Below are positions 1,921 through 64,000 of a stretch of DNA of 64,000 nucleotides, piece by piece. Position 1 is the stretch's first letter. Each line of letters begins with the position of its first letter. A program made the position numbers and the translations under genes. Under the pieces are notes generated by a model. It was not told the origin of the DNA and made no database searches. It saw only the letters and a program-made list of their open reading frames with translations. The DNA comes from Promethearchaeota archaeon (lineage in GTDB: Archaea; Asgardarchaeota; Lokiarchaeia; Sigyniarchaeales; SOKP01), in NCBI GenBank assembly GCA_011364925.1, contig RDOA01000005.1:1-64000 (forward strand). The letters are read 5' to 3'.

Positions 1921-2245
1921 TTTTCATTCAATTTTAATTGTATATTTTACTTTAATTCAGATGGGAAACCTTTTAAATAATCTCATAAAATTTTATAAAT
2001 CAGAGAGAAATTGAAAAAGTCAATTTCCATTATACGTAAATAATTTTTATTATCTCAAAGCAATACAAATGAGAATTTTTTGAGTGATTTATCTATTTAT
2101 TTCCAAAACAGTGTCCTATACTCTTCTTATTCATATTCTACCAATACTATCTCCTAATCTTAATTTTTTTAAGGAAAATTCTTATTAAACAAAAAATCAT
2201 TTTGATCATAATTGTTCAAGACCTACTTTTAAGGTGTAATTAAAA
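1921..2245. other. Intergenic region, divergent promoters
   Basis: AT-rich gap between divergently transcribed hppA and the glucan phosphorylase. It must hold promoters for both, but several TATA-like A/T tracts make a specific assignment unsafe. The only clear element is an AAGGTG Shine-Dalgarno sequence at 2231-2236, serving the gene to the right. No ORF of note on either strand. Confidence 0.5.
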
Positions 2246-2248
2246 ATT
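2231..2248 (+). promoter_or_regulatory. Shine-Dalgarno plus probable ATT start codon of glucan phosphorylase
   Basis: AAGGTG at 2231-2236 is followed, 9 nt on, by ATT at 2246-2248 in frame with the phosphorylase. An in-frame TAA at 2237 rules out a start further upstream, and no ATG/GTG/TTG lies in frame before 2288. An ATG at 2253 is out of frame by one base across a run of eight A's (2258-2265). Confidence 0.5.
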
Positions 2249-3961
2249 ACAAATGATAAAAAAAATCAGGAGATTGCATATTTCTCAATGGAAATAGCAT
2301 TAGAAAGCAGTGTCCCAATTTATTCTGGTGGTTTAGGTATTTTGGCAGGAGATGCACTCCGATCTGCTGCAGATATGGGTGTACCGATGGTTGCAGTAAC
2401 TTTAACTTATGATGCCGGTTATTTCTATCAAGAAATTACACCAGAAGGATATCAAGTCGAACATGATATGGAATGGGATTTTAGTAATGATTTTGAGAGA
2501 ATTAATGAGAGAGTTCAACTTAATATCCAAGATAAAGCGATAATTATTGAAGCATGGCGTTATAACATTATAGGAAGAACTGGTCATATAGTACCAGTGA
2601 TTCTACTTGATACAGACTTACTAGATAATGAACCTTGGCAGAGAAAACTTACCCATATTTTATATGATGCAGATAAATTTCAACGGATTACTCAGGAAAT
2701 GATTTTAGGAATAGGTGGACTTAGAATGCTAGATAAATTAGGTTATAACAATATTAAGACCTATCATTTAAATGAAGGGCACGCCGCTTTTTTAATCCTT
2801 GAATTACTTAAAAAATATAAAGACATAAATCAAGTAAAACAAAGAGTTTGTTTCACAACGCATACTCCGGTCAGAGCTGGACTTGAGGAATTTGATTATA
2901 ATTTAGCCAAGGATGTTTTTAGATCTTATTTACCTGATAATATACAAGATTATGCTGGTAAAAATACGCTTAATATGACTATTTTAGCTCTAAATTTTAG
3001 TAGATATGTCAATGCAGTTTCAAAAAAGCATCTTGAAATTACTAAAAGAATGTTTCCTAATTATGATATTGATTCTATTACTAATGGTGTCCATGCAGGA
3101 TATTGGTTATCACCATATATGAGGAATTTTTTTAATAATGAGTTTGGAAGAGATTGGCATCATAATTTGGCACTTTTAAGAGATGCTGAAAATCTTGACA
3201 GCTTTGAACTATGGAGAACACATAATAAAGCTAAGCGTGATTTAATCGAATATGAAAAATCTCATTCATGGATATTGCTAAATGATAGGTTGTTAACTAT
3301 AGGATTTGCAAGACGATTTGCAGAATATAAACGTCCACTTCTAATCTTTTCCGAGATGGAAAAATTAGCTAAGATTATTAAAGGAAAAGCTCAATTAATT
3401 TTCGCGGGAAAGGCTCATCCAGCTGATCTTCAATCAAAATCGCTTATCAAAAAAATATTTGATTTTAGTGATTATTTATGGAATTCATATCAAATTGGGG
3501 TTGTATTTTTAGAGAATTATGAAATTACATTAGCAAAATTATTAACAAGTGGCGTTGATATTTGGCTAAATAATCCAAGAAGATATCTTGAAGCAAGTGG
3601 AACAAGTGGGATGAAAGCGGCATTGAACGGTGTTCTAAATTTAAGTGTGTTAGATGGATGGTGGATTGAAGGGTATAGCATTTCAAATGGAAAAGCAGGT
3701 TGGTCTATTGGCCCCGAACCTTCTGATCCTAATGCTGAAAAGGCAGATGACAAAGTGGATGCTGTAGATCTGTATCAGAAATTAGAAAATGAAATCATTC
3801 CTCTATATTATAATAATCAAGACGAGTGGAGAGAAATGATGAAACAAGCTATTAAATTAGGTGCATACTTTAATACTAATCGAATGGTCGAAGAATATGC
3901 AAGAAAATCTTACAACTTGATAAAGCAACCATTGTGGAAAAGTCAAAACATTGGATTTTAA
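2246..3961 (+). CDS. Alpha-glucan (glycogen/maltodextrin) phosphorylase, GT35 family
   Basis: Phosphorolysis of alpha-1,4-glucans to glucose-1-phosphate, in the cytoplasm. The short archaeal/bacterial GlgP form, about 570 residues. Visible motifs: YSGGLGILAGDALRSAADMG near the N-terminus, TTHTPVRAGLEEF, and the PLP-site segment EASGTSGMKAALNG (the lysine is residue 443 counted from ATG 2288, 457 counted from ATT 2246). The family's first strand (AYFSMEI) is encoded upstream of the first in-frame ATG (2288): codons 2246-2287 read as an N-terminus ending EIAYFS. I therefore place the start at ATT 2246, behind AAGGTG. Alternatives are ATG 2288 (loses the strand) or a one-base A-run error linking ATG 2253. 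Function sure, start uncertain. No partner glycogen genes are adjacent. Confidence 0.93.
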   Translation: MTNDKKNQEIAYFSMEIALESSVPIYSGGLGILAGDALRSAADMGVPMVAVTLTYDAGYFYQEITPEGYQVEHDMEWDFSNDFERINERVQLNIQDKAIIIEAWRYNIIGRTGHIVPVILLDTDLLDNEPWQRKLTHILYDADKFQRITQEMILGIGGLRMLDKLGYNNIKTYHLNEGHAAFLILELLKKYKDINQVKQRVCFTTHTPVRAGLEEFDYNLAKDVFRSYLPDNIQDYAGKNTLNMTILALNFSRYVNAVSKKHLEITKRMFPNYDIDSITNGVHAGYWLSPYMRNFFNNEFGRDWHHNLALLRDAENLDSFELWRTHNKAKRDLIEYEKSHSWILLNDRLLTIGFARRFAEYKRPLLIFSEMEKLAKIIKGKAQLIFAGKAHPADLQSKSLIKKIFDFSDYLWNSYQIGVVFLENYEITLAKLLTSGVDIWLNNPRRYLEASGTSGMKAALNGVLNLSVLDGWWIEGYSISNGKAGWSIGPEPSDPNAEKADDKVDAVDLYQKLENEIIPLYYNNQDEWREMMKQAIKLGAYFNTNRMVEEYARKSYNLIKQPLWKSQNIGF

Positions 3962-4187
3962 ACCTACGATCTTAAAGAATCGTTAAAAGTCTTTCAGGAC
4001 AATATTTCTTTTAAATCTAGCTTAATTAAATCAAGCACTTTAGGGATATATAACCTAACAATTTGCGAATCTTGTTTATAATTTTTAGAATAAATATTTA
4101 TAAAATAGTATGTATCTTATAGGCTTAATACGAATTGTTTAGTTCTGAGCTAGAATTCAGAATTAATTTAAATCAAAAATTAAAAAA

Positions 4188-6683
4188 GTGTTAAAATTGG
4201 AAGAAAACGTATTAACTACAGAAGCAGCAAAAACAATGGATATTAAGGAAATATATTCCCAGCTAAAAACTGATAAAACAGGATTGAGTAGTGCGGATGC
4301 AGAAAAAAGGTTAGAACAATATGGTTATAATGAAATTCCTGAGAAGAAAGTTCGACCGATTATAAGATTTCTCAAAAATTTCTGGGGGCCTATACCTTGG
4401 ATGATAGAAATTGCCGCGATTTTATCAATAATAATAAATCACTGGGACGATTTTGCTATAATTACCGCGATGCTTTTAATAAATAGTGTTGTTAGGTTTT
4501 GGGAAGAAAACAAAGCAGATAATGCTATAGCACTATTAAAAGAAAAACTAGCGTTGAGAGCTAAGGTTCGACGAGACGGAAAATGGGATGAAATAGAGGC
4601 TAGGTTATTGGTGCCTGGAGATATCGTTCATCTTAGATTAGGAGATATTATCCCTGCGGATGTAAAATTAATCGATGGAGAATATCTCACAGTCGATGAA
4701 TCGGTTTTAACTGGTGAATCATTACCTGTTGATAAAAAGGTTTCAGATTTGGGATATGAAGGGGCAATAATTCGTCAGGGTGAAATGGATGGAATTGTAG
4801 TAGGTACTGCCTTGAATACATTTTTTGGAAAAACAACGCAATTAGTCCAACAAGCAAAAACAAAAAGCCATTTTCAAAAAGCAATTGTCAAAATTGGTAA
4901 TTATCTTATCATTATAGCGGTTATACTTGTCGTAATTGTATTTATTGTTGGAATCATAAGGGATTTAGAATACTCTGGACACCAGAGTATATTTGGTTTA
5001 CTCCAATTTGCGTTAGTTTTAATGGTAGCTGCTATCCCAGTGGCATTACCCGCAGTTATGATGGTGTCAATGGCGGTAGGTGCAACAAAGTTAGCAAAAA
5101 AAAAAGCCATTGTCAGTAAGTTACTTTCAATTGAAGAGGCGGCAAGCGTAGACGTTTTATGTAGTGATAAAACGGGTACATTAACAAAAAATCAAATTTC
5201 TATTGCTAAAATTATACCCTTTGGTAATTATTCGGAAAAAGATGTCATTCTTTATGGAAGTTTAGCATCAAAAGAGGAAAGTAGAGACCCTATAGATGAC
5301 GCTTTCTTTGATAAAGCTAAAGAAGAAACGGAAATTAACGCTTCGTTATCAGAATACAACCCAATATCTTTTATACCTTTTGACCCAGTAAAAAAACGGA
5401 CAGAAGCAAAATTAAAAAATAATTCGGGTGATGAAATTAGAGTTTCTAAAGGAGCTCTTCAAGTGATTTTAGATTTAGTTAAGAAAGATCAAGCTTTAGA
5501 AGATAAAGTCGATATGCAAGGAAAAGAATTTGCATCTCATGGATTTAGAGCACTTGGAATAGCAAAATCGGAAAATCAAGGGTTATGGGAGTACGTAGGG
5601 ATTGTCGCTTTGCATGATCCCCCTAGAGAAGATTCGCTTGAAACAATAAAAACAGCAAAATCTCTGGGAATAAATGTAAAAATGGTAACAGGAGATCATA
5701 TAGAAATTGCAAAACAAATAGCGGGAAATCTTGGAATTGGCACTAATATTGTTGTTTCTTCAGATATTATAGGAAAAGAAGACGAAAAGACCATAAATCT
5801 AGTTGAAAACGCAGATGGTTTTGCAGAAGTGTATCCAGAACATAAATACCATATTGTGGAACTTCTACAAAAGAAGGATCATGTTGTCGGGATGACTGGT
5901 GACGGAGTAAATGATGCACCAGCCTTAAAAAAAGCAGATATTGGTTTTGCCGTTTCCAATGCAACAGATGCAGCAAAATCTGCAGCTGATATAGTCTTAA
6001 CTGATCCAGGGATCTCCGTAATTGTTAAAGCGACTACAACAAGTCGGAAGATCTTTGAAAGAATGAAAAGCTATGCTGTATACCGAATTGCAGAAACTGT
6101 TCGAATATTGATCTTCTTAGTCCTTTCTATTACAATTTTCGCCTTTTATCCTATAACTGCGATAATGATCGTCATTTTAGCTCTTCTAAACGATTTGCCT
6201 ATAATGACAATTGCATTTGATAAAACTAGAATTGCTGAGAAGCCAGTCAGATGGAGGATGCAAAGGATTTTGATTTTATCTTCAGTATTAGGTATCGCTG
6301 GAGTTATCTTTAGTTTTTCTATATTTTTAATTGGTAAATTTGTATTTCTACTCGGTCTCTCAACGCTTCAAACGTTTATTTTCTTGAAATTGGCAGTAGC
6401 AGGGCATATGACAATATATCTTACGAGAACCGACAAAGATCATTTTTGGAAAAGACCCCTTCCATCAAAAATTCTCTTTATCACTTGTGAATCAACACAA
6501 GTAATAGCAACTATTTTTGCTGCGACGGGAATTTTTATGGCACCAATTGGGTGGGCATTAACAGGTTTTATATGGGTGTTCGCTCTCGCTGCGTTTGTTG
6601 GAAATGACTTTCTAAAAGTAGCGACGATAAAATGGCTTGATAGAAGAGATGCTAGAAAAAAAGAACTGGAAATAATAAAATGA
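4188..6683 (+). CDS. P-type H+-ATPase, P3A (plasma-membrane proton pump) subfamily
   Basis: ATP-driven cation pump, most like the P3A H+-ATPases of Thermoplasma, Methanocaldococcus, fungi and plants. Of 831 residues, in order: an N-terminal cytosolic segment with an LSSADAEKRLEQYGYNEIPE motif; two membrane helices; actuator domain with LTGES; helices with the PVALPAVMM segment; phosphorylation motif CSDKTGTLT (Asp327); nucleotide-binding domain with KGA; hinge GMTGDGVNDAPALKKADIG; and a C-terminal set of helices. No heavy-metal-binding CxxC and no Ca2+-ATPase signature are seen. Start is GTG at 4188; an in-frame ATG lies 48 nt downstream. Preceded by a 226-bp gap and followed by T-tracts, so probably monocistronic. 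H+ as substrate is inferred from subfamily. Confidence 0.92.
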   Translation: MLKLEENVLTTEAAKTMDIKEIYSQLKTDKTGLSSADAEKRLEQYGYNEIPEKKVRPIIRFLKNFWGPIPWMIEIAAILSIIINHWDDFAIITAMLLINSVVRFWEENKADNAIALLKEKLALRAKVRRDGKWDEIEARLLVPGDIVHLRLGDIIPADVKLIDGEYLTVDESVLTGESLPVDKKVSDLGYEGAIIRQGEMDGIVVGTALNTFFGKTTQLVQQAKTKSHFQKAIVKIGNYLIIIAVILVVIVFIVGIIRDLEYSGHQSIFGLLQFALVLMVAAIPVALPAVMMVSMAVGATKLAKKKAIVSKLLSIEEAASVDVLCSDKTGTLTKNQISIAKIIPFGNYSEKDVILYGSLASKEESRDPIDDAFFDKAKEETEINASLSEYNPISFIPFDPVKKRTEAKLKNNSGDEIRVSKGALQVILDLVKKDQALEDKVDMQGKEFASHGFRALGIAKSENQGLWEYVGIVALHDPPREDSLETIKTAKSLGINVKMVTGDHIEIAKQIAGNLGIGTNIVVSSDIIGKEDEKTINLVENADGFAEVYPEHKYHIVELLQKKDHVVGMTGDGVNDAPALKKADIGFAVSNATDAAKSAADIVLTDPGISVIVKATTTSRKIFERMKSYAVYRIAETVRILIFLVLSITIFAFYPITAIMIVILALLNDLPIMTIAFDKTRIAEKPVRWRMQRILILSSVLGIAGVIFSFSIFLIGKFVFLLGLSTLQTFIFLKLAVAGHMTIYLTRTDKDHFWKRPLPSKILFITCESTQVIATIFAATGIFMAPIGWALTGFIWVFALAAFVGNDFLKVATIKWLDRRDARKKELEIIK

Positions 6684-6689
6684 AATTAA

Positions 6690-6712
6690 TTTTTATTTTT
6701 TTATAATTTTTT
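6690..6712 (+). terminator. Probable oligo-T terminator of the P-type ATPase gene
   Basis: Three T-tracts of 5-7 T's follow the TGA stop (6681-6683) within 30 nt. Oligo-T runs on the coding strand are the usual archaeal intrinsic termination signal. Confidence 0.45.
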
Positions 6713-7024
6713 AAAACAAATCATCCAACAATCAGTATTTAGGAATAATTATCATATATTTCTTTTAGTTGGACTAGTATAGTAGCTAAAATATTACGAG
6801 TCATCCTTGAATGAAACCTTTTACATCTTAAAATTGCGAGATCAAAATTTTATTTATACCCTAATGATTATTTACAAAAATAAAGTAAAATTTCAATTTT
6901 TTTAACTCCATCTTACAATTTATTTTTATTCTTTAATGATTTGTAAGGAGAACGCTTATTATATGTATTCAAGTTTGAATATTAAGATTAAAAATAGATA
7001 ATATTGTTATGAGGTGTAGAATTA
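6713..7024. other. Intergenic region upstream of the UspA-like gene
   Basis: AT-rich spacer with no supported ORF. It ends in GAGGTG at 7011-7016, a Shine-Dalgarno sequence 8 nt before ATG 7025. TATA-like tracts are present but no single promoter stands out. Confidence 0.4.
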
Positions 7025-7480
7025 ATGTATAAAAAAATATTAGTCGGAATTGATGGTTCAGAAAGTTCTTTAGATGCAGTTAAAGAAGCATTAGAAATTC
7101 AAAAACGTGATAAAAGTGAAGTTACAGTATTTTATTCACTAACTTATAACCTATATGAATATATACCTACATTTACATTCTTAGGGAGACCTACTTCTGC
7201 TATTCCTTATGCACTTCAACATGAACAAATAAATGAGGTTAACGAACTTTTGAATTCCGTTCAAGAATTATTCGAAAAAGAAGGACAAAAAGTCGAAACA
7301 CGATTGATATTCGATATCAATCCCGAAGATTACATAAAAAAAGTAGCTAAAACGGAAAAATTTGACTTAGTGATTTTAGGGTCAAAAGAAAAACATTCGA
7401 AATTAAAAACCATATTTTCAGAGCCTATTCCGGATAAAGTTGTCAATAGCATTTCTAGTGATGTTCTTGTTGTAAGATAA
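7025..7480 (+). CDS. Universal stress protein (UspA) family, probably non-ATP-binding
   Basis: Single-domain UspA-fold protein of 151 residues, normal length. It opens with the family strand ILVGIDGSESSLDAVKEA and closes with SDVLVVR. The C-terminal nucleotide loop, usually G-x2-G-x9-G-[ST], reads LGSKEKHSKLKTIFSEPIPD: only the first glycine is left, so ATP binding as in MJ0577 is unlikely (inference). It lies between the proton ATPase and the CBS-domain site-2 protease, each with its own upstream gap. Start ATG is preceded by GAGGTG. Precise cellular role not predictable. Confidence 0.88.
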   Translation: MYKKILVGIDGSESSLDAVKEALEIQKRDKSEVTVFYSLTYNLYEYIPTFTFLGRPTSAIPYALQHEQINEVNELLNSVQELFEKEGQKVETRLIFDINPEDYIKKVAKTEKFDLVILGSKEKHSKLKTIFSEPIPDKVVNSISSDVLVVR

Positions 7481-7635
7481 GTATATTCACCAGGTTATAC
7501 TGAAGTCTTTCTTATCATTTTTTTCTTGTTTAAGTATTGAAAGTTTTGATTGAAACAAATTTATTTAAAATTTTTAATGTTAAGGTTTAAATATCCAGAA
7601 TTAATAGGTAAACAAAAATCTCTAAAGTGATTTAA

Positions 7636-19033: not shown

Positions 19034-19048
19034 AGGTGGATTATTATA
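19034..19048 (+). promoter_or_regulatory. Shine-Dalgarno plus probable ATA start of the D-aminoacylase
   Basis: AGGTGG at 19034-19039 is followed by ATT ATT ATA GAG. The reading frame between an in-frame TAA (19004) and TTG 19127 contains no ATG, GTG or TTG. ATA at 19046 lies 6 nt after AGGTGG and sits exactly where amidohydrolase N-termini begin; ATT 19043 is the alternative. Confidence 0.5.
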
Positions 19049-20665
19049 GAGCTAGATATCCTTATAAAAAATGGGAGAATCGTCAATGGAACGGGAAATC
19101 CTTGGTATCCTGGAGAAATTGGAATCTTGGATGGAAAAATTATTCATATTAGTCATAAAATAAAGGAAAAAGCAAAAAAAGTAATTAATGCAAATGGACT
19201 TATAGTATGCCCTGGATTTATTGACATCCATTCTCATTCTGATTACTTTTTACCATTTTCTAGAACTTTAGAGTCAACACTTTATCAAGGTATTACAACT
19301 ACCATTGTAGGAATGTGTGGAGACGGAATGGCTCCAATACCTGAGGGAAGGGAAGAAGAATTCAAAAAGTTAATGTCAACTATGGACCCTGCCCTTGCTC
19401 AATTAGATTATCCATATCACACGTTTGGTGAATATTTAGATTATAATGAAAGAAAAAGAAATTCTTCAAACTTAATATTTGCTATAGGATATGGAAATTT
19501 AAGATGGGCGGGAGGTCAAGGTGGTGAAAATAGACCTGCAACTCGAGAAGAACTAGAGAAAATGAAGTTCTACTTACGTGAAGCATTAGAAGCAGGAGCC
19601 TTTGGAATGAGTACAGGATTGATCTATGCACCTCAAGTTTTTGCCACTACTGGAGAAATTATAGAGTTAGCTAAAGTTGTAGCAGAGTATAATGGATTAT
19701 ACTTTTCACATATCCGAGATGAAAGTTCATCAATACTAGATGCAATAAAGGAAGTAATAGAAATTGTTGAAAAATCTGGTTGTGTTGGGGGACAAATTGC
19801 TCATCATAAAGTATCTGGTGAAGCAAATTGGGGAATGAGTAAGGAAACTCTAAAATTAATTGAAGATGCAAATAATCGAGGGATTAATATTGCTTACGAC
19901 CAATACCCATATAATCGAGGATGGTCAAATTTGATGACAGCTCTTCCTCCATGGGCCCGCGTAGGATCATATGAGGATATTTTGGAACGTATAAAAAAAC
20001 CAGAAATTCAGGAAAAAATTAAGCAAGACATCGAGACCGGAATTGAAGGTTGGGAATCTTGGATTAAAAATAATGGATTTCATAATATTTTTATCTCAAC
20101 TGTTGGGAGTGAAAAATGGAAAGATACAGTGAGTAAAAGTATAACTGAAATTACAAAATTAAAAAAATTTCCTGATGATTTTACAACTTTTTTCCAAATT
20201 TTGATTGATAATAATTTATCTGTTAATATAACAATTAGAAGCATGGCTGAAGACGATATACGAAGAATTATGGTTGGTCGATATCATATGGTTGGTACTG
20301 ACGGTGCTGGAATTCCTGCTGCATATAGTGCTGGTGCGTTTCATCCCCGATTTTTTGGCACTTATCCACGAATACTTGGTAAATATGTGCGAGAAGAGAA
20401 GCTGCTGTTATTAGAAGAAGCGATTAGGAAAATGACATCGTTTCCAGCTCAAAGATTAGGATTAAAAGATAGAGGGCTCATTATGGAAAGATATTGGGCA
20501 GATATCGTCATTTTTGATCCCGATAAAGTAAAAGATACCGCGACATTTGAAGATCCATATCAACTTCCAGAAGGTATCCCATATGTAATCGTAAATGGAG
20601 TAATTGTCATTGAAAACGGGGAAAAAAATAAGAAAGCACCAGGGAAAATTATCCGTCGAGTCTGA
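19046..20665 (+). CDS. D-aminoacylase (N-acyl-D-amino-acid deacylase), amidohydrolase superfamily
   Basis: Removes acyl groups from N-acyl-D-amino acids; zinc amidohydrolase. N-terminal small beta domain (ELDILIKNGRIVNGTGNPWY, then strands), metal ligands HSHSD at about His62/His64, SHIRDESSS and QIAHHKVSG for further ligands, GTDGAG with the catalytic Asp, and C-terminal WADIVIFDPDKV. The N-terminal strands are essential to the fold and are encoded upstream of the first permitted start (TTG 19127), so I place the start at ATA 19046 behind AGGTGG. 539 residues, normal size. Probably in peptide or D-amino-acid catabolism. A prolyl/dipeptide hydantoinase-like role is a weaker alternative. Confidence 0.9.
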   Translation: MELDILIKNGRIVNGTGNPWYPGEIGILDGKIIHISHKIKEKAKKVINANGLIVCPGFIDIHSHSDYFLPFSRTLESTLYQGITTTIVGMCGDGMAPIPEGREEEFKKLMSTMDPALAQLDYPYHTFGEYLDYNERKRNSSNLIFAIGYGNLRWAGGQGGENRPATREELEKMKFYLREALEAGAFGMSTGLIYAPQVFATTGEIIELAKVVAEYNGLYFSHIRDESSSILDAIKEVIEIVEKSGCVGGQIAHHKVSGEANWGMSKETLKLIEDANNRGINIAYDQYPYNRGWSNLMTALPPWARVGSYEDILERIKKPEIQEKIKQDIETGIEGWESWIKNNGFHNIFISTVGSEKWKDTVSKSITEITKLKKFPDDFTTFFQILIDNNLSVNITIRSMAEDDIRRIMVGRYHMVGTDGAGIPAAYSAGAFHPRFFGTYPRILGKYVREEKLLLLEEAIRKMTSFPAQRLGLKDRGLIMERYWADIVIFDPDKVKDTATFEDPYQLPEGIPYVIVNGVIVIENGEKNKKAPGKIIRRV

Positions 20666-39622: not shown

Positions 39623-39958
39623 TTTGTTTTACCTCATTTAGTAAATTTTACTATTATAAATAAACCCTTTTTAGTATTTAAAATTAATTTAAGAAATCTA
39701 TAAATGTTGATTATTAATACTAAAGATTTTTATCCAGCTCATTTTAGCTCGTTTTTGTAATTCTGGTGAAATCATAGATTTTTATCACTCTATTATTGAA
39801 AATATATGCTTATTTTTTCTTAAATCCAACATTTTTTTATGTGTTTTTTAATTTTAATGCATAAATTTAAGCAAATTTAATTGGGTTGATCTTAGATTCT
39901 TCATGAGGATTCGTTCAGTGATAATATTGATGACCTCGAGGTTATAAGAGAGGCATTA
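39623..39958. other. Intergenic region with an open, coding-like tail before the TPR gene
   Basis: Divergent spacer. The last 60 nt (39896-39958) are open in the TPR gene's frame and read like protein (HEDSFSDNIDDLEVIREAL), but there is no ATG, GTG or TTG; the nearest codon behind the TAG at 39893 is ATT 39896. GGGTTGATC at 39883-39891 resembles the 16S-tail complement, 4 nt before it. Otherwise AT-rich and empty. Confidence 0.4.
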
Positions 39959-41542
39959 ATGCAAATTGAAACAATCAAAAATGAGAAGGAAAAGAACAAT
40001 CTTATTCAAATAACAATTAACGATTCTATCTCGACAGCTTTTGAAATTGCTGATTCTGGAGAATTTTATGAAGCTGGTGAATTTCTATTTTCAATAACGG
40101 AATTGTTAGAAGAGCTCGTCTCTGTTCAATCTAATAAGTTATATAAATTAATAGTAAAGTATTGGAGCAATGCAATTACTGATCTTAAGATTCAAGGAAA
40201 ATTGCACGAGGTTGCAGAAATTTTCTTAAGAATTGCGGATCTTTATGAGAAAATAAACGACGCTAAGTCGTATAGAAAGAATATTATAGGAAGCATCGAA
40301 TACTTAAAGCAAGAAAGCAAAATTTTAAAAGACTTTAATGAAACGAGAAAATTAGCGCAAAATTACGAGAACATAGCTGGGTTATATCTAAAAATCGATA
40401 ATCTAAAAAACGCAATTAAATATTATTTAAGTGTTGTCAATATTGCTAAAGAGCATGAATATTTTGATTTACTATCTTATTCATATAAACAAATCTCGTC
40501 ATGTTATCAAGATTTAGACGAGATTGAAAAATCTAATGGCATTATTTACGACGGGATAGAGTTTTTCTCGATACTTTTACAAACATTTGAAGAGAAAAAT
40601 GATAATCTCGCGATTTCTCAAATTGCACAAGTTTTAAAGTCTCTTTATCAGATCATCGATGACGAAGAGCAATTTGTTAATTACTCTAAAAAAGAAGCTG
40701 GAGCATATATCAATTTAGCGGAAAGATTAGAGAAAAGCAAAGAAAATTACTATAAAATAGCGAGATATTATCGAGGGGCAGCATTATGTTACCAAGAAAT
40801 AAACAATAATTTAATCGAATCAGCTTCTTGTTTTGTATTAGCTGGAAATTACTCTGAAGGAATTGAGGATTTTAACGAAGCAGCAAACAACTTCTTTAAT
40901 GCCGCAGGGACTTTTAAAGAATTAACCAATTTAGAGATGGCATATAAGCATTATGTGAAAGCAGGAGACAATTATTGGAAAGTTGAGAATGTGAACGATT
41001 CCACAGAATGCTATCTGAACGCTTACGACATTGCAGTAGAAGGAAACTTAGAATACAATCGATTTGGTATTTTCAACCAAATAATAAGAGGGTTGAACAT
41101 TATCGCAAAAGAAGGATTAAAGAATAAAGAATTCTATACCGCAGCAACGCTCATAATGGAAAGCATTAAATTTTATCAACAGCTCGATACTGCAAAAGAC
41201 TTTCTAGTTAACGAAATGCTTAAGAATGTGTATCGGTATTACTACCGGGCGGCGAACTTAAAGAAGATTGGCTATTCCCACATCGTTCAATCATATGTAA
41301 TGGCAGCTATCTCTTCTATTCTTAATGGCAAAACTAAAAAAGCACTCGAAATTCTCTCTGAGATAGAATTAGAAGGAAATACAGTAAATAAATATAAAGA
41401 ATTAGTTAAATTAATTATTAAGTGGGTCTCTGAGGGAAAAACAGTAGACTTTGAAAATTTTCCTTACGAACTACAACGAATAATTCAACACTCAGAGGAA
41501 ATAACATATCTTTTAAAATTCTTTAAGGGATACAAACCCTAA
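39959..41542 (+). CDS. TPR / alpha-solenoid protein
   Basis: 527 residues. Helical hairpin repeats throughout: EAGEFLFSITELLEEL, YENIAGLYLKIDNLKNAIKY, AGNYSEGIEDFNEAANNFF, AAGTFKELTNLEMAYKHYVK, AGDNYWKVENVNDSTECYL. The arrangement resembles SNAP/Sec17-like TPR scaffolds of eukaryotes (SNAP-like TPRs are known in Asgards); this is only a fold-level resemblance. ATG 39959 is preceded by GAGAGG 5 nt away, but the open frame upstream (39896-39958) may be coding if a non-ATG start is used. Function: protein-interaction scaffold. Confidence 0.75.
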   Translation: MQIETIKNEKEKNNLIQITINDSISTAFEIADSGEFYEAGEFLFSITELLEELVSVQSNKLYKLIVKYWSNAITDLKIQGKLHEVAEIFLRIADLYEKINDAKSYRKNIIGSIEYLKQESKILKDFNETRKLAQNYENIAGLYLKIDNLKNAIKYYLSVVNIAKEHEYFDLLSYSYKQISSCYQDLDEIEKSNGIIYDGIEFFSILLQTFEEKNDNLAISQIAQVLKSLYQIIDDEEQFVNYSKKEAGAYINLAERLEKSKENYYKIARYYRGAALCYQEINNNLIESASCFVLAGNYSEGIEDFNEAANNFFNAAGTFKELTNLEMAYKHYVKAGDNYWKVENVNDSTECYLNAYDIAVEGNLEYNRFGIFNQIIRGLNIIAKEGLKNKEFYTAATLIMESIKFYQQLDTAKDFLVNEMLKNVYRYYYRAANLKKIGYSHIVQSYVMAAISSILNGKTKKALEILSEIELEGNTVNKYKELVKLIIKWVSEGKTVDFENFPYELQRIIQHSEEITYLLKFFKGYKP

Positions 41543-54716: not shown

Positions 54717-54720
54717 TTAT

Positions 54721-55242
54721 TTAGTACATTTCTGACTTCGAAAACAATAGCGCGAAACAACCGTAAAATATTCCGTTTACAACCCCGCTTATTAAGAATG
54801 CGATCAATGTCATAGTTGGGATGAGTACTGTTATACCATAAAAATTCAATAGTGTAACAGGATTTACGAACGCTAATACGCCTAAAGCTGCAGCACCAAT
54901 CAATGCAGCGAGCATCCAACCTCCAAAGCTACCTCCTTTACCGTCCCCCGTGCGTCCAGCTACTAATGCCGCAACAAATGGAGAAACTATAAATCCAATA
55001 TTTTGAATTAACGAAGCACCAAATAAACCGGAGGAAATATCAGTAAATATTGAAGTGATCACATTTCCCGGCATGTTAATAACAGGGCCGAAGAATATGA
55101 GTAATAAAATTAACGGATCGCTACTTATAGCGCTAAAAAGGAGGTTTAAATCACTACTTATAGTTTGCGCAATTATAACAAATAGGAAGTTTAAACCAAT
55201 AAAAGCCAGTAGACTGAAACCTAGCGCTTTACCTAGCCCGAT
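54721..55242 (-). CDS. Membrane protein of unknown function, non-ATG (ATC) start inferred
   Basis: Protein read from ATC 55242 is 173 residues, beginning MGLGKALGFSLLAF. It has five to six membrane helices and a Gly-rich loop AGRTGDGKGGSFGGW (around 95-110). The first available ATG (55074) would cut off the first two helices. In-frame TGA 55248 blocks anything upstream; ATC 55242 is 9 nt after GAGG (in AGAGGTTGATG). ATG 55249 is out of frame by one base across AAAAA (an A5-to-A4 change would join it). Function unknown; convergent with the 349-residue membrane protein. Confidence 0.6.
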   Translation of the reverse strand: MGLGKALGFSLLAFIGLNFLFVIIAQTISSDLNLLFSAISSDPLILLLIFFGPVINMPGNVITSIFTDISSGLFGASLIQNIGFIVSPFVAALVAGRTGDGKGGSFGGWMLAALIGAAALGVLAFVNPVTLLNFYGITVLIPTMTLIAFLISGVVNGIFYGCFALLFSKSEMY

Positions 55243-55472
55243 TTTTCATCAACCTCTTTTTATAATCTATATTCAATTTAAATGTTTGATTCTATGTAAA
55301 AATTATTTAAATTTATTTATTTAAATTTAATTAAGTCCAATTTTTTATGTCGAATTTTATTAATTCTAGAAAATTAAGTTGAAAAAAGCCTTGAATTGGT
55401 GAAAATTACACAAATTTTTAGTAATTTCTTCTATATTTTAATAATTAGAATTTTTAATAATAATTTAAGGTT

Positions 55473-56510: not shown

Positions 56511-56687
56511 AAAAATTAGTTTGGTAACATAAATTTTACTTTTTTAAATAAAGAGATTGGTTATTATGCTAATACTAAGATTTTTATTATTGAATTTTCA
56601 AAACTAATATATACGGGTGTATTTTAAAAATTAATAATAAAGGGTTGTTTTATCAAAATATATATGATTAATATACTAAATTAAATT

Positions 56688-58616
56688 TTGATTATTGTGG
56701 TAAATAAGGAGCTACTTACTATACTGAAATCCATTGGAGAGAAAGCGAAAGGAGAAGCATTTACACTTAAGATGAATTCTCACGTTTTTTTTAACATTTT
56801 GGAATCTAATAACAATTCATTATTGGAATTTAAAGAAGAAATTAAAAAAGAATGGGAAAAGTTTAAAATTTTAAACCAGAATAGAATTATTAAGAAAACT
56901 TACTCTACATTTTTTTTCCAATATTTTCATAACTATTTCAAATATTACCTCCAAAATTTTTGTGGATTTGATACCAGCTCGTTAAAATTGATAATAAAAG
57001 AGAAAATATCTGACGACCAGTTATTTTTAGAGTATAGCTATACCCTATCTCCCGAAGAACAGGATTATTTTCGGGAATTCCGTGAGAATTTTGACGACGG
57101 TGCAGATGGAATAACTACTCCATTTGGTTATCTTTATCTCGTTGTAGCAATTTTGGGAGTAGTGTTAAGAAAGCTTCTGAAAGAAAAATTTTTTATAATT
57201 TTAGATGGAGCTGTATTAAAGAATGGTGAGAATAATAACACTTTAAAATTTCTAGTTGTTATAAAAAACAGTCACGATGAGCTCTTTGCTAACTATTATT
57301 ATATGTATTTAATATATTTTTTGAAATATTTTAAAGATATTCCAAAATCCTATTTTGATAAGCTTCTAAAAGGGAGAGAGAAAGTATATCAGATTGCGAT
57401 TGAAGAATATTCTTTTGCTAAAGATAAACTTGTTGATCTGTTGTATTACTTCTATAAAAAGTGTAATCTCCTTCAAAATTTCTCACCACTTCTAGATTTT
57501 TTAAATTTCGTGTGTAGCCGAGTCGAAGACTCTGTATTTCCTAAATTGGATATCATCAGAAAAGAGTTCTTACAAAACTTTGATTATTCTGAAGAAAAAA
57601 AAAATTCATTGCTTCGAATTTTTGATTTCATTGATAAGAAATCTACCCTATATAGTACATTTCAGGCGAACAACCTCCCAAGCCACAAAGCACAATTTAA
57701 CTTGTTTCTGTTGTATACAAAATACTTTTTTGGCGGTGGAAGCTTAGAGGCTTTGGAAGTTGGAGATTTTTTACTATTACCCGCGGATTTTAAAGAAGCG
57801 TTGAATGCAACCAATAATCAAATCGAAAATACAATTACTGCTACTACTATAAAAGACATTAGAGAATTTTTGGATAATTTTTCAATCGCATCGAATTTAG
57901 AGAATCCAAATCTAATTTTTAGAATTATTTTTGGGAAGGAAATTTCCCAGATTAATTACGACTTCTTTAAAGCTTTCTTACATAGTTTAAACACTAGCAT
58001 TCAGCGTTTAATAGATAAAGAAAATAAAATTTTAGAAGAAGACCCTAACAACGAGCCATTAACCTTTAAGTTAGTAGTTGATCATATTTGTAGGATGCTA
58101 TACACTTTAATAGATAAAATTTTTATAAGAAAACTTCCAGGACAAGCATCTAAAAACTTTATTGACCCTAGAAGCAGATATATTGGGAGAAATATAGCTT
58201 TGAGGGTATTGGAATTGTTCATTTTCAGCGACTTAAATGTCTCAGACGATGTGTGGCCTGATTACATAATAAGTATGAAAAAAGATGTTTTAACAAAAGA
58301 CTTAGAAAAATTCAATGTGAAAATTCCAGAAAATCTGTTCTATAACTACGAAGATATTGCAAGATTCGTCGTTACCTTTAATTTTCTCCCCAGTAATCAG
58401 CCTTTATTCGAAGAATGGGTAATCAATGGAATAATGATGCCGATAAACGAATTTATTTTAAAGATTCATAGTTTAATTAAAGATAAGGCTAAAGGTGTTG
58501 AAATTCACGAAATTCTCTATAATTACTTCATTAATAATATAGAAGGAATAAATAATCATCAAGAATTAGAATTTGTTTGTCAACAGCTCTCCGTTGTTTG
58601 GAACAATTCGAAGTAA
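56688..58616 (+). CDS. Large orphan protein, 642 aa
   Basis: Not recognised. 642 residues from TTG 56688 (TTG ATT ATT GTG GTA; GTG 56697 is an alternative). No membrane helix or catalytic motif; helix-rich and aromatic-rich (Phe, Tyr), with segments PFGYLYLVVAILGVVLRKLL (about 143) and a charged middle section. Resembles the style of the 1204-residue protein at 47914 but no direct repeat was seen. Downstream neighbour is MobB (convergent). Likely lineage-specific. Confidence 0.6.
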   Translation: MIIVVNKELLTILKSIGEKAKGEAFTLKMNSHVFFNILESNNNSLLEFKEEIKKEWEKFKILNQNRIIKKTYSTFFFQYFHNYFKYYLQNFCGFDTSSLKLIIKEKISDDQLFLEYSYTLSPEEQDYFREFRENFDDGADGITTPFGYLYLVVAILGVVLRKLLKEKFFIILDGAVLKNGENNNTLKFLVVIKNSHDELFANYYYMYLIYFLKYFKDIPKSYFDKLLKGREKVYQIAIEEYSFAKDKLVDLLYYFYKKCNLLQNFSPLLDFLNFVCSRVEDSVFPKLDIIRKEFLQNFDYSEEKKNSLLRIFDFIDKKSTLYSTFQANNLPSHKAQFNLFLLYTKYFFGGGSLEALEVGDFLLLPADFKEALNATNNQIENTITATTIKDIREFLDNFSIASNLENPNLIFRIIFGKEISQINYDFFKAFLHSLNTSIQRLIDKENKILEEDPNNEPLTFKLVVDHICRMLYTLIDKIFIRKLPGQASKNFIDPRSRYIGRNIALRVLELFIFSDLNVSDDVWPDYIISMKKDVLTKDLEKFNVKIPENLFYNYEDIARFVVTFNFLPSNQPLFEEWVINGIMMPINEFILKIHSLIKDKAKGVEIHEILYNYFINNIEGINNHQELEFVCQQLSVVWNNSK

Positions 58617-58637
58617 ATCCAAAAAGTAAATATCAAT

Positions 58638-59141
58638 TCATGAGATTTCAAATATTTGGCAAAAATCTTCGAAATTATTCTCAACATCAAGTATTGGCGC
58701 CCTAATTTCTTTGATTTGATTAATGTTACTTGTTGTAATTAAACCAGAAATCATTTTAATATAATTATTGAATTGTTCATCTATTTGATTTAAATTTTCA
58801 ACACATAAGATTGTTGGGTAAGGTAAATTCCTAAAACTTTCAAAAAAAAGAATGTCTAATTTGAAAGGGCTCTTTTCTAACCATTTTATCAGATCTTCCA
58901 AATTAATTTCATCTTTAAGAAAAATTGCGCTCTCACCAGCTTTATTCTGTATAATTGAAAAAACTGCACCAGATTTAGAAAATCTATAAGAATCTTTTCC
59001 TTCTTCATCGATTTGGTGTTCGTGTATATATTTTATTACACCTACTTTTAAGTTCAGTTCAAATTTCAATTTACTTATAAGATTCTCAATAAGAATCGTC
59101 TTTCCTGAACCAGAATACCCAATCACATTAATTATTTTCAT
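58638..59141 (-). CDS. mobB: MobB: molybdopterin-guanine dinucleotide biosynthesis protein B
   Basis: 167 residues. P-loop VIGYSGSGKTILIENL (8-15) at the start, then VGVIKYIHEH (metal-binding/His region of MobB), and IDEEGKDSYRFSKSGA before it. Provides GTP/nucleotide handling for molybdenum-cofactor guanylylation. No MobA nearby. Supports a molybdo- or tungsto-enzyme in the genome. Convergent with the 642-residue orphan. Confidence 0.9.
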   Translation of the reverse strand: MKIINVIGYSGSGKTILIENLISKLKFELNLKVGVIKYIHEHQIDEEGKDSYRFSKSGAVFSIIQNKAGESAIFLKDEINLEDLIKWLEKSPFKLDILFFESFRNLPYPTILCVENLNQIDEQFNNYIKMISGLITTSNINQIKEIRAPILDVENNFEDFCQIFEIS

Positions 59142-59263
59142 TTAAAACTGCCAAATCTTAACTTTTTTAAAAAATCCTAGAGATTTAATATAAGTATTAA
59201 TATCTAAAAAGTGTTAAAAGAATTAACTTTCCATTGAGACAAACGAAATAGTTCCGTCTAATC

Positions 59264-61264
59264 ATGACCACGAAAAATGAAATAATTGTATTCGACGCCA
59301 ATTTCTTTATTTGCATGAATTCCATTCGAGCAAAAAACATACTGGAAAATTTAAAATCAGCTGCTTCAGATCTAGGTTTTGTATATTACACAAGTACCGT
59401 TGTCTTTGATGAAATTAAAGCCTCGAGTACGTATCGAGACAAGTTTCAAAACATTATAAAAGTTGAAAAAATAGAAGAATTAGAGATTGACTCAATTAAA
59501 AACGACCTAAGCACTGAAGGTATTCGTTTTCCTGCTCAAGATCCTGATTTATCCTTATTATCATTATCTCAGAAATTACTCGATGATGACAACAATCGTA
59601 TGATCAATTTAGTTTCAGACGATTTTAAACTTGTAAAAAATGCTAATATATTCTTCCATGGAAAAATAAATATTTTGTCTCTTTCGAGTTTTTTATTAAA
59701 AATCCATAGAACAATCCCAAATAAACAATTACGAAGCTATTTTAAAAATTTATGGAAAAAAAGTTTGAACTACACCTTAGCATATATGATAGAACGCTCT
59801 AAAATCTATCCTGCTGAAGAAAAGATCACATGGTTAATTGAAAAAGCAATAAGTGTTACCCAAGACTCAATTATTACCCAAGATGCGCGCTATGGTGATA
59901 ATCAAAAGGATCATGTTAAATTTGAGATTGGAAAAAGTAAATACGAGAATGAAATTACTATTTGTGAAAAATATATTGGAAATCAAAAACTTGCGAATAG
60001 TGAAGAAAAATACCTTACGGGAATAATCAATTTCCTTGAAAATTTAAAAATATCTCGCGAGTATGTAATACAAGCTCGCAAGGCGATTGAAAAACAGGAA
60101 TCAAAAGATGCGGTAAAATATTTAAAAAAGGGAAATGGATTCTTAATTTCGCTTTTGCAAATTGCTTCAGGGCAGTTATCCAATCCCAAGGATTATGAGA
60201 TTGTCGAACAATTAATCTGTAGCGAAATTTCAAAGATGGAGTTCTTAAGAGCCTTCATCTTAATTTCGTTAGGAAGGGTTAATAATGCTATTGATTCGTT
60301 AGAACGAGCAGCGCTTTTTTCTACGATAATTCATAATCATCAAACTTGTTTAACTTTAAATTATGTAAAAGCCTTAATCCTTTTGTTTCATGGGTTATAC
60401 AACAACGCGATTATGGCATATAACTTTACGGAAGAGCTAGCAGACATCTATAACGATGAACGCCTTAAACTCAAATGTGCTATAGGAAAAAGTATAGCGC
60501 TTTATATTCAAGGTGAGGATAGCGAAACAGCAATGGCAATAATGGAGGAGATTTCATTAATGGACATGGAGAAAAACTTCTTAGACGCGGTTATCGTATT
60601 TGGCGAGCTCGGGGATTATTTCTTAGCCTTAGGTCACTCCCAATTAGCAGCAAATTTGTATAATGAGGCGCTAGAAATAAGTATTGACTACAATCTCAAG
60701 ATCAGGAGCGATATTCTCATAGAAAAATTAAAACGTTCATACATCGCAACAGTTCTGAATGGGTATTCCACAGAGGATATTATGGTTGATAAATTGGATG
60801 TCTTGCTTAATAGGGCTTACGCAGTAAAGGAAATTGAGAAATATAATGAACAGATTAAGAAAATATCTAGCTTTAACATTTTATTTTATACACCCTTTCC
60901 CTATATCACTGGTAAAAAAAAATTAGTCCCATATATAAAACTTCCTAAAGAGCTACAAGAGGATTATTTAGAAGTTGTTCATTTCGAAAAAATTGGTGAC
61001 AAAGATGGCTCTAAATATCTTTTCGTAGTTTCTCACTATGAACTTGGATTACTTGGAATTATTCTAAAGACTGATGAGAGGGTAACTGGTATAGCAGAAA
61101 ATTATACTTTGAAATTAAAACCTACATCAAAAGTTAAAATCTACAATCCATCCGCAAATTTAAAAGATACCTACTTGGTTAGAGCGATCGTAGAGGTTGT
61201 ATCAAAAGATGAATGCGAAATTGTATATTCACTACCTTCTTTCTTTAAGGCGTTAAATATATAA
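59264..61264 (+). CDS. PIN-domain nuclease fused to TPR-like helices and C-terminal beta domain
   Basis: 666 residues. The N-terminal 140 are a PIN domain: IVFDANFFICMNS (Asp10), TSTVVFDEIKAS (Glu), and NLVSDDFKL (Asp). The middle (about 280-500) has helical hairpins in TPR style (KAIEKQESKDAVKYLKKGNG, LFHGLYNNAIMAYNF, LGHSQLAANLYNEALEIS). The C-terminal 120 residues (FYTPFPYITGKKKLVPYIKL) look like a beta-rich domain, possibly OB. The arrangement recalls rRNA- or translation-linked PIN proteins such as Nob1, but is not one of these. eS26 lies next door, convergently (1 nt gap), a possible link to ribosome biogenesis (inference). Confidence 0.78.
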   Translation: MTTKNEIIVFDANFFICMNSIRAKNILENLKSAASDLGFVYYTSTVVFDEIKASSTYRDKFQNIIKVEKIEELEIDSIKNDLSTEGIRFPAQDPDLSLLSLSQKLLDDDNNRMINLVSDDFKLVKNANIFFHGKINILSLSSFLLKIHRTIPNKQLRSYFKNLWKKSLNYTLAYMIERSKIYPAEEKITWLIEKAISVTQDSIITQDARYGDNQKDHVKFEIGKSKYENEITICEKYIGNQKLANSEEKYLTGIINFLENLKISREYVIQARKAIEKQESKDAVKYLKKGNGFLISLLQIASGQLSNPKDYEIVEQLICSEISKMEFLRAFILISLGRVNNAIDSLERAALFSTIIHNHQTCLTLNYVKALILLFHGLYNNAIMAYNFTEELADIYNDERLKLKCAIGKSIALYIQGEDSETAMAIMEEISLMDMEKNFLDAVIVFGELGDYFLALGHSQLAANLYNEALEISIDYNLKIRSDILIEKLKRSYIATVLNGYSTEDIMVDKLDVLLNRAYAVKEIEKYNEQIKKISSFNILFYTPFPYITGKKKLVPYIKLPKELQEDYLEVVHFEKIGDKDGSKYLFVVSHYELGLLGIILKTDERVTGIAENYTLKLKPTSKVKIYNPSANLKDTYLVRAIVEVVSKDECEIVYSLPSFFKALNI

Positions 61265-61265
61265 C

Positions 61266-61538
61266 CTAATATTTTCTTAATTGTTTATCTCGTTGGCTAA
61301 CTTGATGACCGTGAATAGCACAACTTATGCAGTAATAATTCTTCTTACTGGGGGTCTGAATAATAGTCCCTTCTTTCTTGAGTTCTGTAAACATTCTCCC
61401 ATCGACTAATGAAACTCGTCTTGTGACAGCTTTTGCTTTACTACGAGGTACAAAACGCCCACACTTATAACATTGAACGCGATTATAATGACCCTTGCTT
61501 GAGCCACTTTTTCCGCCACTTCTTCTTTTTTTAGGAAT
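61266..61538 (-). CDS. rps26e: Ribosomal protein eS26, ATT start inferred
   Basis: Small-subunit ribosomal protein, 90 residues. Reads MPKKRRSGGKSGSSKGHYNR (ATT read as Met), then VQCYKCGRFVPRSKAKAV and NYYCISCAIHGHQV, matching eS26: basic N-terminal tail, zinc ligands C23-C26 and C70-C73, and the CAIH hallmark. The family N-terminus Met-Pro-Lys-Lys falls exactly on ATT 61538. No ATG, GTG or TTG occurs upstream as far as an in-frame TGA at 61607; the first ATG is residue 49. CTGAT lies 4 nt upstream, the same spacing as GTGAT before ATG at 7636. Established: eS26 occurs in TACK and Asgard archaea. Confidence 0.93.
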   Translation of the reverse strand: MPKKRRSGGKSGSSKGHYNRVQCYKCGRFVPRSKAKAVTRRVSLVDGRMFTELKKEGTIIQTPSKKNYYCISCAIHGHQVSQRDKQLRKY

Positions 61539-61662
61539 AAAAATCAGCTTTTTTTTCTGTTTTCTACATCTTAGAATAAGACAAACCTTAAAAAATTTAT
61601 TCTTTCACTGTGAAAATTAGCATAAACGTACTCATTTTTAGCTTTATTTCACGAAGAAATGG

Positions 61663-62358
61663 TTAACTTTCATTGATCGCTTCGATTTTACTTAAAGCTT
61701 TAAAAGAATATACTAACCTTTGAATCACTGTCAAAATGAGTAAGCCTGTGAATACTATTGTGAAAATAGGAAAAAACAAAGTGAAAGGCGCTCCATACAA
61801 AAGATTAGAAATGAAATAGATCCAATACTCAATAATAAAGGCTAACCAAAGAACAATCATTCTTTCAGCTCTTTCCATAAAACCTACGCCTTTCATGTCA
61901 ATACCCTCGTTTTCAGCTCTCGCGCGAACATACGAAATCATAATGATTAAAAACATAATCGCAAATCCAATTAGATAATTGAAATAACCCCCTATTATTA
62001 ACCCTAAAACTAGTAAAGCATCAGATAGTCGATCTAGATTCGAATCTAAAAAAGCTCCTGATTTTGAAATATTTTCTGTCCTGCGAGCAACTTCTCCATC
62101 AAAAACATCAAAGGCTCCTGCCCAGAACATTGTAAATGGGACAATCCACGCTATTTGAAAAGGAAAATGCAACCCTCCGTACGCGAGTAGAACAGCTACT
62201 ACTACAGAACAAAAAAATCCGCAATAAGACAAGAAATTTGGTGTAAATCCATGTTTAATTAGTATTTTGACTGGATAATCAACAAATTTATTTAACAGTC
62301 TTCGCTGGTTATTCCGTTTTGCGTTAGCTTGTTCAGATTTGCTCAAATTTTCAGCCAA
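61663..62358 (-). CDS. CDP-alcohol phosphatidyltransferase (archaetidylinositol-phosphate-synthase type)
   Basis: 231 residues, membrane phospholipid-synthesis enzyme. Six helices. Catalytic motif D-G-x2-A-R-x8-G-x3-D-x3-D is intact: FDGEVARRTENISKSGAFLD then NLDRLSD. PF01066 family: transfers a polar head group to CDP-archaeol in archaea. The cytosolic N-terminal 35 residues include NRRLLNKFVDYPVKILIKHG, typical of archaetidylinositol phosphate synthase; headgroup not proven. Ends before the eS26 promoter. Confidence 0.9.
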   Translation of the reverse strand: MAENLSKSEQANAKRNNQRRLLNKFVDYPVKILIKHGFTPNFLSYCGFFCSVVVAVLLAYGGLHFPFQIAWIVPFTMFWAGAFDVFDGEVARRTENISKSGAFLDSNLDRLSDALLVLGLIIGGYFNYLIGFAIMFLIIMISYVRARAENEGIDMKGVGFMERAERMIVLWLAFIIEYWIYFISNLLYGAPFTLFFPIFTIVFTGLLILTVIQRLVYSFKALSKIEAINES

Positions 62359-62410
62359 TATTAGTTTTATCGATAATTAATTTTAAAAGTACTTTAAAAT
62401 AAAAAATTTT

Positions 62411-63007
62411 TCATACTAATAATTGCAGATTGATTTTGATTAAACGAATCGTGGAAGATGCTAAATATGAGCGATGTCCTAAGCTCAGATTTGTCAAATT
62501 CATCTTTTTCAATTCATTATCAATTAGAAAATCACCGCTTTGATCTCCAATGAGAAATAATAAATTATCTTTTGACTTCAATTTCCTAAACTCTTTTCTA
62601 TAATCATTACCAGATTCGTTTAACACATATATTTTATAATTTCGTTTAGTAAAATCCCTAATTGCATCAAAAATACTTTTCTCGGAGTATATTACTGATT
62701 CAAGTGTTTTAGGGTGGTTTTCTGTTTTGGTCTTATTCTTAATCAAGCCTACAAAAGAATCTGTCAGTAAAATTTCATTTTTCGGAAAAGTCTCATTATT
62801 TAGATAATTAGAATCAAAGATATATGTTCCATAATTATCAAGAAAAATCCAAATTTGAATATCTTTTTCAATTTCTTTTTCATTTAGAATAGCTGATAAG
62901 ACACATCTTGAAATAACATCAAGCCTTCCAGATGACCCCGGGATATCTTTGATATTATACTTACTGATGTTAACAGTTGCTGATTTTAAAAAATAGATAA
63001 TACTCAT
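62411..63007 (-). CDS. trmY: tRNA pseudouridine(54) N1-methyltransferase TrmY
   Basis: SPOUT-family methyltransferase of archaea making N1-methylpseudouridine 54 in tRNA. 198 residues. N-terminal DIPGSSGRLDVISRCVLSA is the TrmY signature; C-terminal SAM-knot region FLIGDQSGDFLI and LGHRSYLASSTIRLIK (TrmY-like L-G-x-x-S-Y-L-A-S). ATG 63007. Downstream of the CbiM/N pair on the minus strand. Confidence 0.92.
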   Translation of the reverse strand: MSIIYFLKSATVNISKYNIKDIPGSSGRLDVISRCVLSAILNEKEIEKDIQIWIFLDNYGTYIFDSNYLNNETFPKNEILLTDSFVGLIKNKTKTENHPKTLESVIYSEKSIFDAIRDFTKRNYKIYVLNESGNDYRKEFRKLKSKDNLLFLIGDQSGDFLIDNELKKMNLTNLSLGHRSYLASSTIRLIKINLQLLV

Positions 63008-63114
63008 TAACTTAAAGCCGATCTAATCGAAATATCTGGTCTATTATGATTAGGAATACCACATTTGGATATATTATTTACTTTTTCGACCTAAAAACAC
63101 TTCTGAAATTCCTT

Positions 63115-63426
63115 TTACTTTACCTTTCTCTTTTTAAAGCGAGCAATTAAATAAAAAGCACTCATCATGATTGTTATCGAAAGTACAATTCCGAGAATTC
63201 CAGCAATATAATCATTATTAAGCCAAGATAAAATAGGAATCCAAGGTGAAAATAGATTATCGAGCCAATCTTCACCATGATAATCAATTAAGACTCTTTC
63301 TAAACCATCAGGAGCATTAGAAAGAAATCCAATCCTAAATCCTACTGATATTACTAACATTAATGAAGTGATAACGATTAATATAACAATTAATGGCCAT
63401 TTATTCCTTTTTAATATGCTTATTAT
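63115..63426 (-). CDS. cbiN: CbiN/PDGLE-domain cobalt-transport subunit, ATA start inferred
   Basis: Accessory subunit of the Co2+ ECF importer. 103 residues when read from ATA 63426. The PDGLE motif (APDGLERV) follows helix 1, and a second helix lies at the C-terminus, ending in a Lys/Arg tail. ATG 63360 lies inside helix 1, so it cannot be the true start. Upstream to an in-frame TGA (63450) there is no ATG, GTG or TTG. GGGAG (63438-63434) is followed at 7 nt by ATA, which overlaps the cbiM stop as TAATA, a stop/start overlap like the classic TAATG. Co-translated with cbiM. Confidence 0.9.
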   Translation of the reverse strand: MISILKRNKWPLIVILIVITSLMLVISVGFRIGFLSNAPDGLERVLIDYHGEDWLDNLFSPWIPILSWLNNDYIAGILGIVLSITIMMSAFYLIARFKKRKVK

Positions 63427-64000
63427 TAGTTCACTCCCAATATTGATTCAGTTGTAATAAGATCAGGTTTGGCTTTATAAATATAGAATATAATTAACGC
63501 AGATATTATTCCTTCACCAATTCCAATTAAAAGATGCCAAAAAACCATAGCAGGTACAGCGATTGCTATTGGTACTTTACCACCAATCGCAATTTCAATG
63601 CCGCATATGAAGGAAGCTAATACAATTGCAATATAGGATCCTATCGCAGTTGCGATCGATACTTTTAATTCTTTTTTGAGGGATGTTTTATTTAAAGCTC
63701 TTACTAACAATGTAACCAAATAAAAACCTACGATTCCTCCGATTATTCCCATATTGAAAGCGTTCGCTCCTAGCGCAGTAATGCCACCATCTGCAAAAAG
63801 ACTTTGGATTACTAAAATTAGAAATAAAACTATGACTGATGCCCATGGACCAAGGATAACAGCTACTAGAGTGCCTCCTACCAAATGGCCGGATGTTCCT
63901 CCAGGTACAGGATAATTAACAAACTGAAAAGCAAAAATTATTGCAGCTAAAACTCCAATATATGGGATTAACTTTTCAGAATCCTCTTTTTCAAACATTT
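63426..64000 (-). CDS. cbiM: CbiM cobalt-transport S component (N-terminus beyond right edge)
   Basis: Substrate-binding membrane subunit of the cobalt ECF importer. The visible part (191 residues, starting inside the protein at the edge) has PVPGGTSGHLVGGTLVAVIL, LFADGGITALGANAFNMG and a helix-rich end ILGVN. The conserved N-terminal metal-binding MHIPDGFL is outside the window, so ATG 63998 is not the start. cbiN follows with a TAATA overlap. Supplies Co for the corrinoid proteins at 33229 and 43604. Confidence 0.94.
   Translation of the reverse strand, partial: MFEKEDSEKLIPYIGVLAAIIFAFQFVNYPVPGGTSGHLVGGTLVAVILGPWASVIVLFLILVIQSLFADGGITALGANAFNMGIIGGIVGFYLVTLLVRALNKTSLKKELKVSIATAIGSYIAIVLASFICGIEIAIGGKVPIAIAVPAMVFWHLLIGIGEGIISALIIFYIYKAKPDLITTESILGVN

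Follow-up and report, generated by a model that had tools for sequence, protein, structure and literature searches.

Genes of the window and their start codons

The window, a stretch of 64,000 nucleotides from contig C70 of a Lokiarchaeal genome (G000), has a GC content of 31.9%. One of its proteins has five relatives with a named source, and each of these comes from Candidatus Lokiarchaeota/Lokiarchaeia. Six of its genes were assigned starts at ATT, ATA, or ATC (AUU, AUA, or AUC, here AUH), as opposed to the canonical starts ATG, GTG, and TTG. These genes and the Shine-Dalgarno (SD) sequences ahead of them are:

2231–2236, + strand: SD-like AAGGTG, 9 nt before ATT 2246 (GlgP)
2246–3961, + strand: GlgP-like glucan phosphorylase (Pfam Phosphorylase), proposed AUU start 2246–2248
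19034–19040, + strand: SD AGGTGGA, 5 nt before ATA 19046 (D-aminoacylase)
19046–20665, + strand: D-aminoacylase/amidohydrolase (Pfam Amidohydro_3), AUA start 19046–19048
39887–39891, + strand: SD-like TGATC, ahead of ATT 39896 (SNAP/TPR-like gene)
39896–41542, + strand: SNAP/TPR-like protein (Pfam SNAP, 9e-10), AUU start directly behind an in-frame TAG
54721–55242, − strand: small membrane protein, AUC start 55242–55240
55252–55257, − strand: SD AGAGGT, preceding ATC 55242 (membrane protein)
61266–61538, − strand: ribosomal protein eS26 (Pfam Ribosomal_S26e), AUU start 61538–61536
61543–61548, − strand: SD-like GCTGAT before eS26, one mismatch from GGTGAT and kept in relatives
63115–63423, − strand: CbiN-position gene downstream of cbiM, AUA start 63423–63421
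63431–63438, − strand: SD-like GGGAGTGA, within the end of cbiM, ahead of ATA 63423

The first-pass annotation had proposed AUH starts for all of these genes except the SNAP/TPR-like one, which is a sixth case. As it held, all five frames are open above the first ATG, GTG, or TTG and encode family residues there; an in-frame stop lies above each proposed start, with 1 to 22 codons between the two. Inspection of the frames and comparison with orthologues showed that the conserved N-terminus of the AUH genes cannot come from any canonical start. The SD sequence described 4–9 nt ahead of each codon was found at 2246, 19046, 55242, and 63423, and not at eS26, which has GCTGAT only.

The eS26 case is unambiguous. 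Residue 1 of the protein aligns with the first position of the Pfam S26e profile, and PKKR is preceded by ATT in 11, ATG in four, and TTG in two of 17 same-genus loci (own locus included). Other genera have ATT (G029), ATA (G030), TTG, or ATG. The frame of G002 and G013 reads TGA TTT TGT ATT CCT, which makes ATT the sole plausible start. The stop stands two codons ahead of ATT in G002, and in several genes an in-frame stop directly precedes the AUH codon; no other start is therefore left. In a pattern scan of 83 genomes of the class, 30 genomes of this family, most of them from the same genus or genus g8, had an eS26 that starts with AUH. The 18 genomes of other families had none, though the pattern also fixes the residues that follow. 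A 31st match, in G035 (ATTCCTAAAAAAAGTAAAACGGG), was rejected: it is not the eS26 of that genome, which starts with ATG. In the 10-contig assembly G034 (C6:441741–442036), eS26 and the CbiN-position gene are split or carry in-frame stops, suggesting that the assembly has base or indel errors at these genes.

Alignment of the five N-termini gave a divided result. Three of the genes (eS26, the membrane protein, and the CbiN-position gene) have AUH in exactly the start column of independently assembled relatives as well; the pattern that would have spoken against AUH initiation, ATG in relatives and AUH in none, was not seen for these three. The membrane protein shares its ATC with G021; the other members of the genus have ATG, TTG, or GTG. 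The start of the CbiN-position gene had been placed at 63426, which was not borne out: relatives have AAA, AGG, or GAA there, and the start was moved to the second ATA, at 63423, because that column holds ATA here and in G016 and ATG or TTG in other relatives. This ATA lies 2 nt past the stop of cbiM (TAA 63428–63426); the protein has a weak Pfam match to PDGLE (E = 4e-4, below the cut-off). D-aminoacylase (AUA) and GlgP (AUU) have AUH in this genome only, among the relatives compared; the start column of D-aminoacylase is ATA here vs. ATG in about 20 relatives. The SNAP/TPR-like gene has AUH in five of five genomes (ATT, ATT, ATC, ATA, and ATT in G000, G002, G015, G020, and G030). Its product has a eukaryote-type fold.

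GlgP is the weakest of the five cases, with an ambiguous alignment. A stop lies three codons upstream of ATT 2246, and a start at the first ATG (2288) would delete the conserved IAYFS block, at or ahead of which the orthologues begin. The start column matches their canonical start only with a one-residue gap. An ATG at 2253 stands one base out of frame ahead of an A8 run, and GlgP alone could be a one-base indel in that run.

Conservation of AUH starts outside the window

Further genes of the same genome were assigned AUH starts:

C70:65087, + strand: Cbi-type ABC ATPase, ATT ATT in five of five genomes
C70:67384–68337 (L151:3384–4337), − strand: TFB, ATT start in six of six genomes
C70:89690, − strand: eS19, ATT here and in G009; ATG in G015, G020, and G030
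C86 (L263:1426–1752): aIF1 (SUI1), ATT start

AGGTG-TAA precedes the ATT of TFB in most of the six genomes. The frame of aIF1 in G000 reads TGA AAA AAG AGT ATT AAA GAC GAC GAC ATT TGT, with the first ATG, GTG, or TTG not before codon 69. We scanned 228 Asgard genomes for aIF1 with a pattern that accepted any third base in the start column. In its main form, all 42 genomes of family f1 that were matched had AUH (41 ATT, one ATC) and never ATG, GTG, or TTG; the column was taken as the start by alignment in the other family members, the upstream sequence having been read in G000 only. Second copies have ATT (three), ATA, or TTG (G004, G012, G018, G073, and G035), and three g2 genomes, with AGC or GAT in the column, presumably have their start at another position. 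Genomes from outside the family have GTG there (nine f15 genomes and G055) or ATG (G140), and in f22, G047, G056, and G057 an ATG comes one codon later. The ribosome-binding site is weak at aIF1, as it is at eS26. Because AUH occurs at about 5% of genes genome-wide, yet canonical codons are wholly absent from the aIF1 column, the alignment suggests selection for a weak start.

These conserved extensions bear on two other explanations. The proteins might start at the first internal ATG, GTG, or TTG, the upstream part being a leader or decayed sequence, which is what gene callers limited to these codons put out. Such starts would cost eS26 half of its sequence, aIF1 half of its SUI1 domain, and TFB its zinc ribbon, and the upstream part shows conservation at the protein level, which already contradicts this explanation; we give it next to no credence. 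Alternatively, ribosomes might start at an out-of-frame canonical codon, with ribosomal or transcriptional slippage on an A-run restoring the frame. A-runs do follow out-of-frame codons in GlgP, in the membrane protein (ATG 55249, one base out, ahead of A5), and in aIF1 (GTG, one A out, ahead of A6) of this genome. The arrangement is absent from eS26, D-aminoacylase, the SNAP-like gene, and TFB, and in relatives an in-frame ATG, TTG, or GTG stands in place of the in-frame AUH. Slippage is thus very unlikely, and we rejected it, together with homopolymer error, as a general account, since it fits only those three genes of this genome and fails in relatives. Initiation at the in-frame AUH codon is the reading retained below.

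Frequency of AUH starts and association with Shine-Dalgarno sequences

Start columns, defined as the position of a canonical start in an orthologue, were counted over reciprocal best hits in nine Lokiarchaeal genomes (2.04 Mb); one partner had to have a canonical start. Unfiltered, the columns held ATG in 281, TTG in 66, and GTG in 19 cases. Genes without a canonical start of their own had AUH in 26 (ATT 18, ATA 6, and ATC 2) vs. 31 spread over 21 other codons. Several matches were likely antisense shadow ORFs (IPRAHIASLTSC at C70:88314, + strand, and IPATSEPIPGSE) and were left out of the filtered counts, which were ATG 236, TTG 37, GTG 16, AUH 13, and other non-canonical codons 8.

A second test required no canonical partner and asked whether protein conservation extends upstream of the first canonical codon. 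In the nine genomes, 45 of 668 gene instances (6.7%) had such an extension, and in 35 of the 45 conservation sets in at an AUH codon that follows an SD-like site. The other extensions, about 10, lack a clear AUH codon with SD and reflect misalignment or starts at other codons, CTG in one case. The same pipeline applied to phages T4, RB69, and RB49, a small control, gave extensions in nine of 108 (8%), none of the nine with AUH and SD. At about position 196459 of G028:C51, a Rubredoxin-like gene has CTG, behind GAGGGG, in the ATG column of G030; a CUG start is possible in this gene.

SD matches of at least 5 nt preceded 38% of AUH starts, 12% of ATG, 20% of TTG, and 3% of other non-canonical codons. 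In SD-anchored scans, AUH was found eight times vs. 2.9 expected in the own genome, 11 vs. 3.1 in the genus, and, with a looser SD, 10 vs. 3.0 in other genera, an excess of about threefold. The AUH group as a whole therefore has a ribosome-binding site at the right distance, enriched over ATG starts. A naive SD-to-codon scan over every in-frame codon had no power and was dropped. The 16S gene was found in part only, without its 3′ end, and the tRNA scan of the sampled contigs did not find the initiator tRNA. Many tRNA matches in G000 span 85–159 nt, which suggests introns.

Sequencing or assembly errors over canonical starts, whether substitutions or homopolymer indels, could account for ATG 2253 of GlgP, which would be in frame if A8 were A9, for the out-of-frame ATG and GTG ahead of A5 and A6 in the membrane protein and aIF1, and for an ATA seen in this genome alone in D-aminoacylase. 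Errors would show no preference for ATT, ATA, and ATC, nor placement behind SDs. The AUH codons of eS26 have no homopolymers, and the same column holds AUH in many independently assembled genomes (eS26, aIF1, TFB, the SNAP-like gene, and the membrane protein; the CbiN-position gene also keeps it in independent genomes). We consider error a highly improbable explanation of the set.

The column statistics, the SD enrichment, and the conservation in relatives thus agree with the first-pass annotation that AUH initiation is real and exceeds single errors. Its term "widespread" holds in that AUH occurs across the family (aIF1, TFB, SNAP-like, Cbi ATPase, and eS19), and needs to be read as a small fraction of genes: from the column test, the extension test, and the SD results we estimate roughly 4–7% of the genes in the sequence sampled. 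Across this Lokiarchaeon and its relatives, AUU, AUA, and AUC together appear to open about one gene in twenty.

Initiation at AUH and comparison with known systems

Codon identity, conservation, SD association, and exchange with canonical starts in a fixed column were seen directly, the last in eS26 (ATT/ATG/TTG/ATA), the membrane protein (ATC/ATG/TTG/GTG), and the CbiN-position gene (ATA/ATG/TTG). On this comparative evidence, this Lokiarchaeal family, with high confidence, uses AUU, AUA, and AUC as genuine initiation codons, at the frequency given above and usually with stronger SD-like pairing than at AUG genes. The initiator Met-tRNA would most likely pair with the first two bases and tolerate a mismatch at the third, and methionine would be inserted at AUH. 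As archaeal aIF1, bacterial IF3, and eukaryotic eIF1 do elsewhere, the Lokiarchaeal aIF1 would reject non-AUG codons; for this reason AUH genes would be translated weakly and inversely to the level of aIF1, and the conserved AUU of aIF1 itself may form a feedback loop on its own synthesis. We regard it as an even chance that this AUU is an archaeal feedback on start-codon stringency, an infC-type circuit on the eIF1 homologue, with an AUH regulon (eS26, eS19, TFB, SNAP-like, and Cbi transporter genes) read out by the level of aIF1.

Genes that start at AUH are shortened or lost by standard gene finders. In Lokiarchaeal annotations, several percent of genes are therefore probably truncated or missing, among them eS26, aIF1, TFB, and the SNAP-like protein, the last relevant to studies of eukaryote origin. 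With routine AUH use and an AUU-started fidelity factor, the evolution of start-codon stringency from archaea to eukaryotes becomes testable; the infC-type circuit, if true, would sit in the lineage closest to eukaryotes.

AUH starts themselves are already known as a rarity; we found no report of them in Asgard archaea in the open-access literature searched. The archaeal initiation review names AUG, GUG, and UUG as start codons (PMC7531240). Use of these codons and switching among them in prokaryotes (PMC5622118, PMC7531240) share the fixed-column exchange seen here. That AUH is otherwise rare, as the first reading assumed, agrees with a single AUG-to-AUU switch among 61,358 reconstructed AUG starts (PMC5622118), whereas in the Lokiarchaeal family AUH recurs.

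The aIF1 of Sulfolobus works against initiation at non-canonical codons (PMC6237735); in the proposed feedback, an excess of aIF1 would accordingly reduce translation of its own AUH mRNA, and depletion would increase it. The Streptomyces sigR gene starts at GTC and is repressed by IF3 (PMC5472188); like the AUH genes, it lies outside the initiation machinery and has a non-canonical start, which lowers its translation, but it is a single gene with a different type of codon. The eukaryotic eIF1, homologous to aIF1 (SUI1), keeps a poor start context for autoregulation (PMC5823381). A weak start has likewise been conserved there over long evolution, although eIF1 retains AUG in a poor context and Lokiarchaeal aIF1 uses AUU. 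A parallel in the codon itself is infC, the autoregulated gene of IF3, whose start is AUU in E. coli and, in Streptomyces, AUC (PMC5472188). Like Lokiarchaeal aIF1, it has an AUH start on a start-codon fidelity factor, with negative feedback proposed; infC is a rare bacterial exception, whereas the Lokiarchaeal case is archaeal, concerns the unrelated factor aIF1, and comes with AUH on many ordinary genes.
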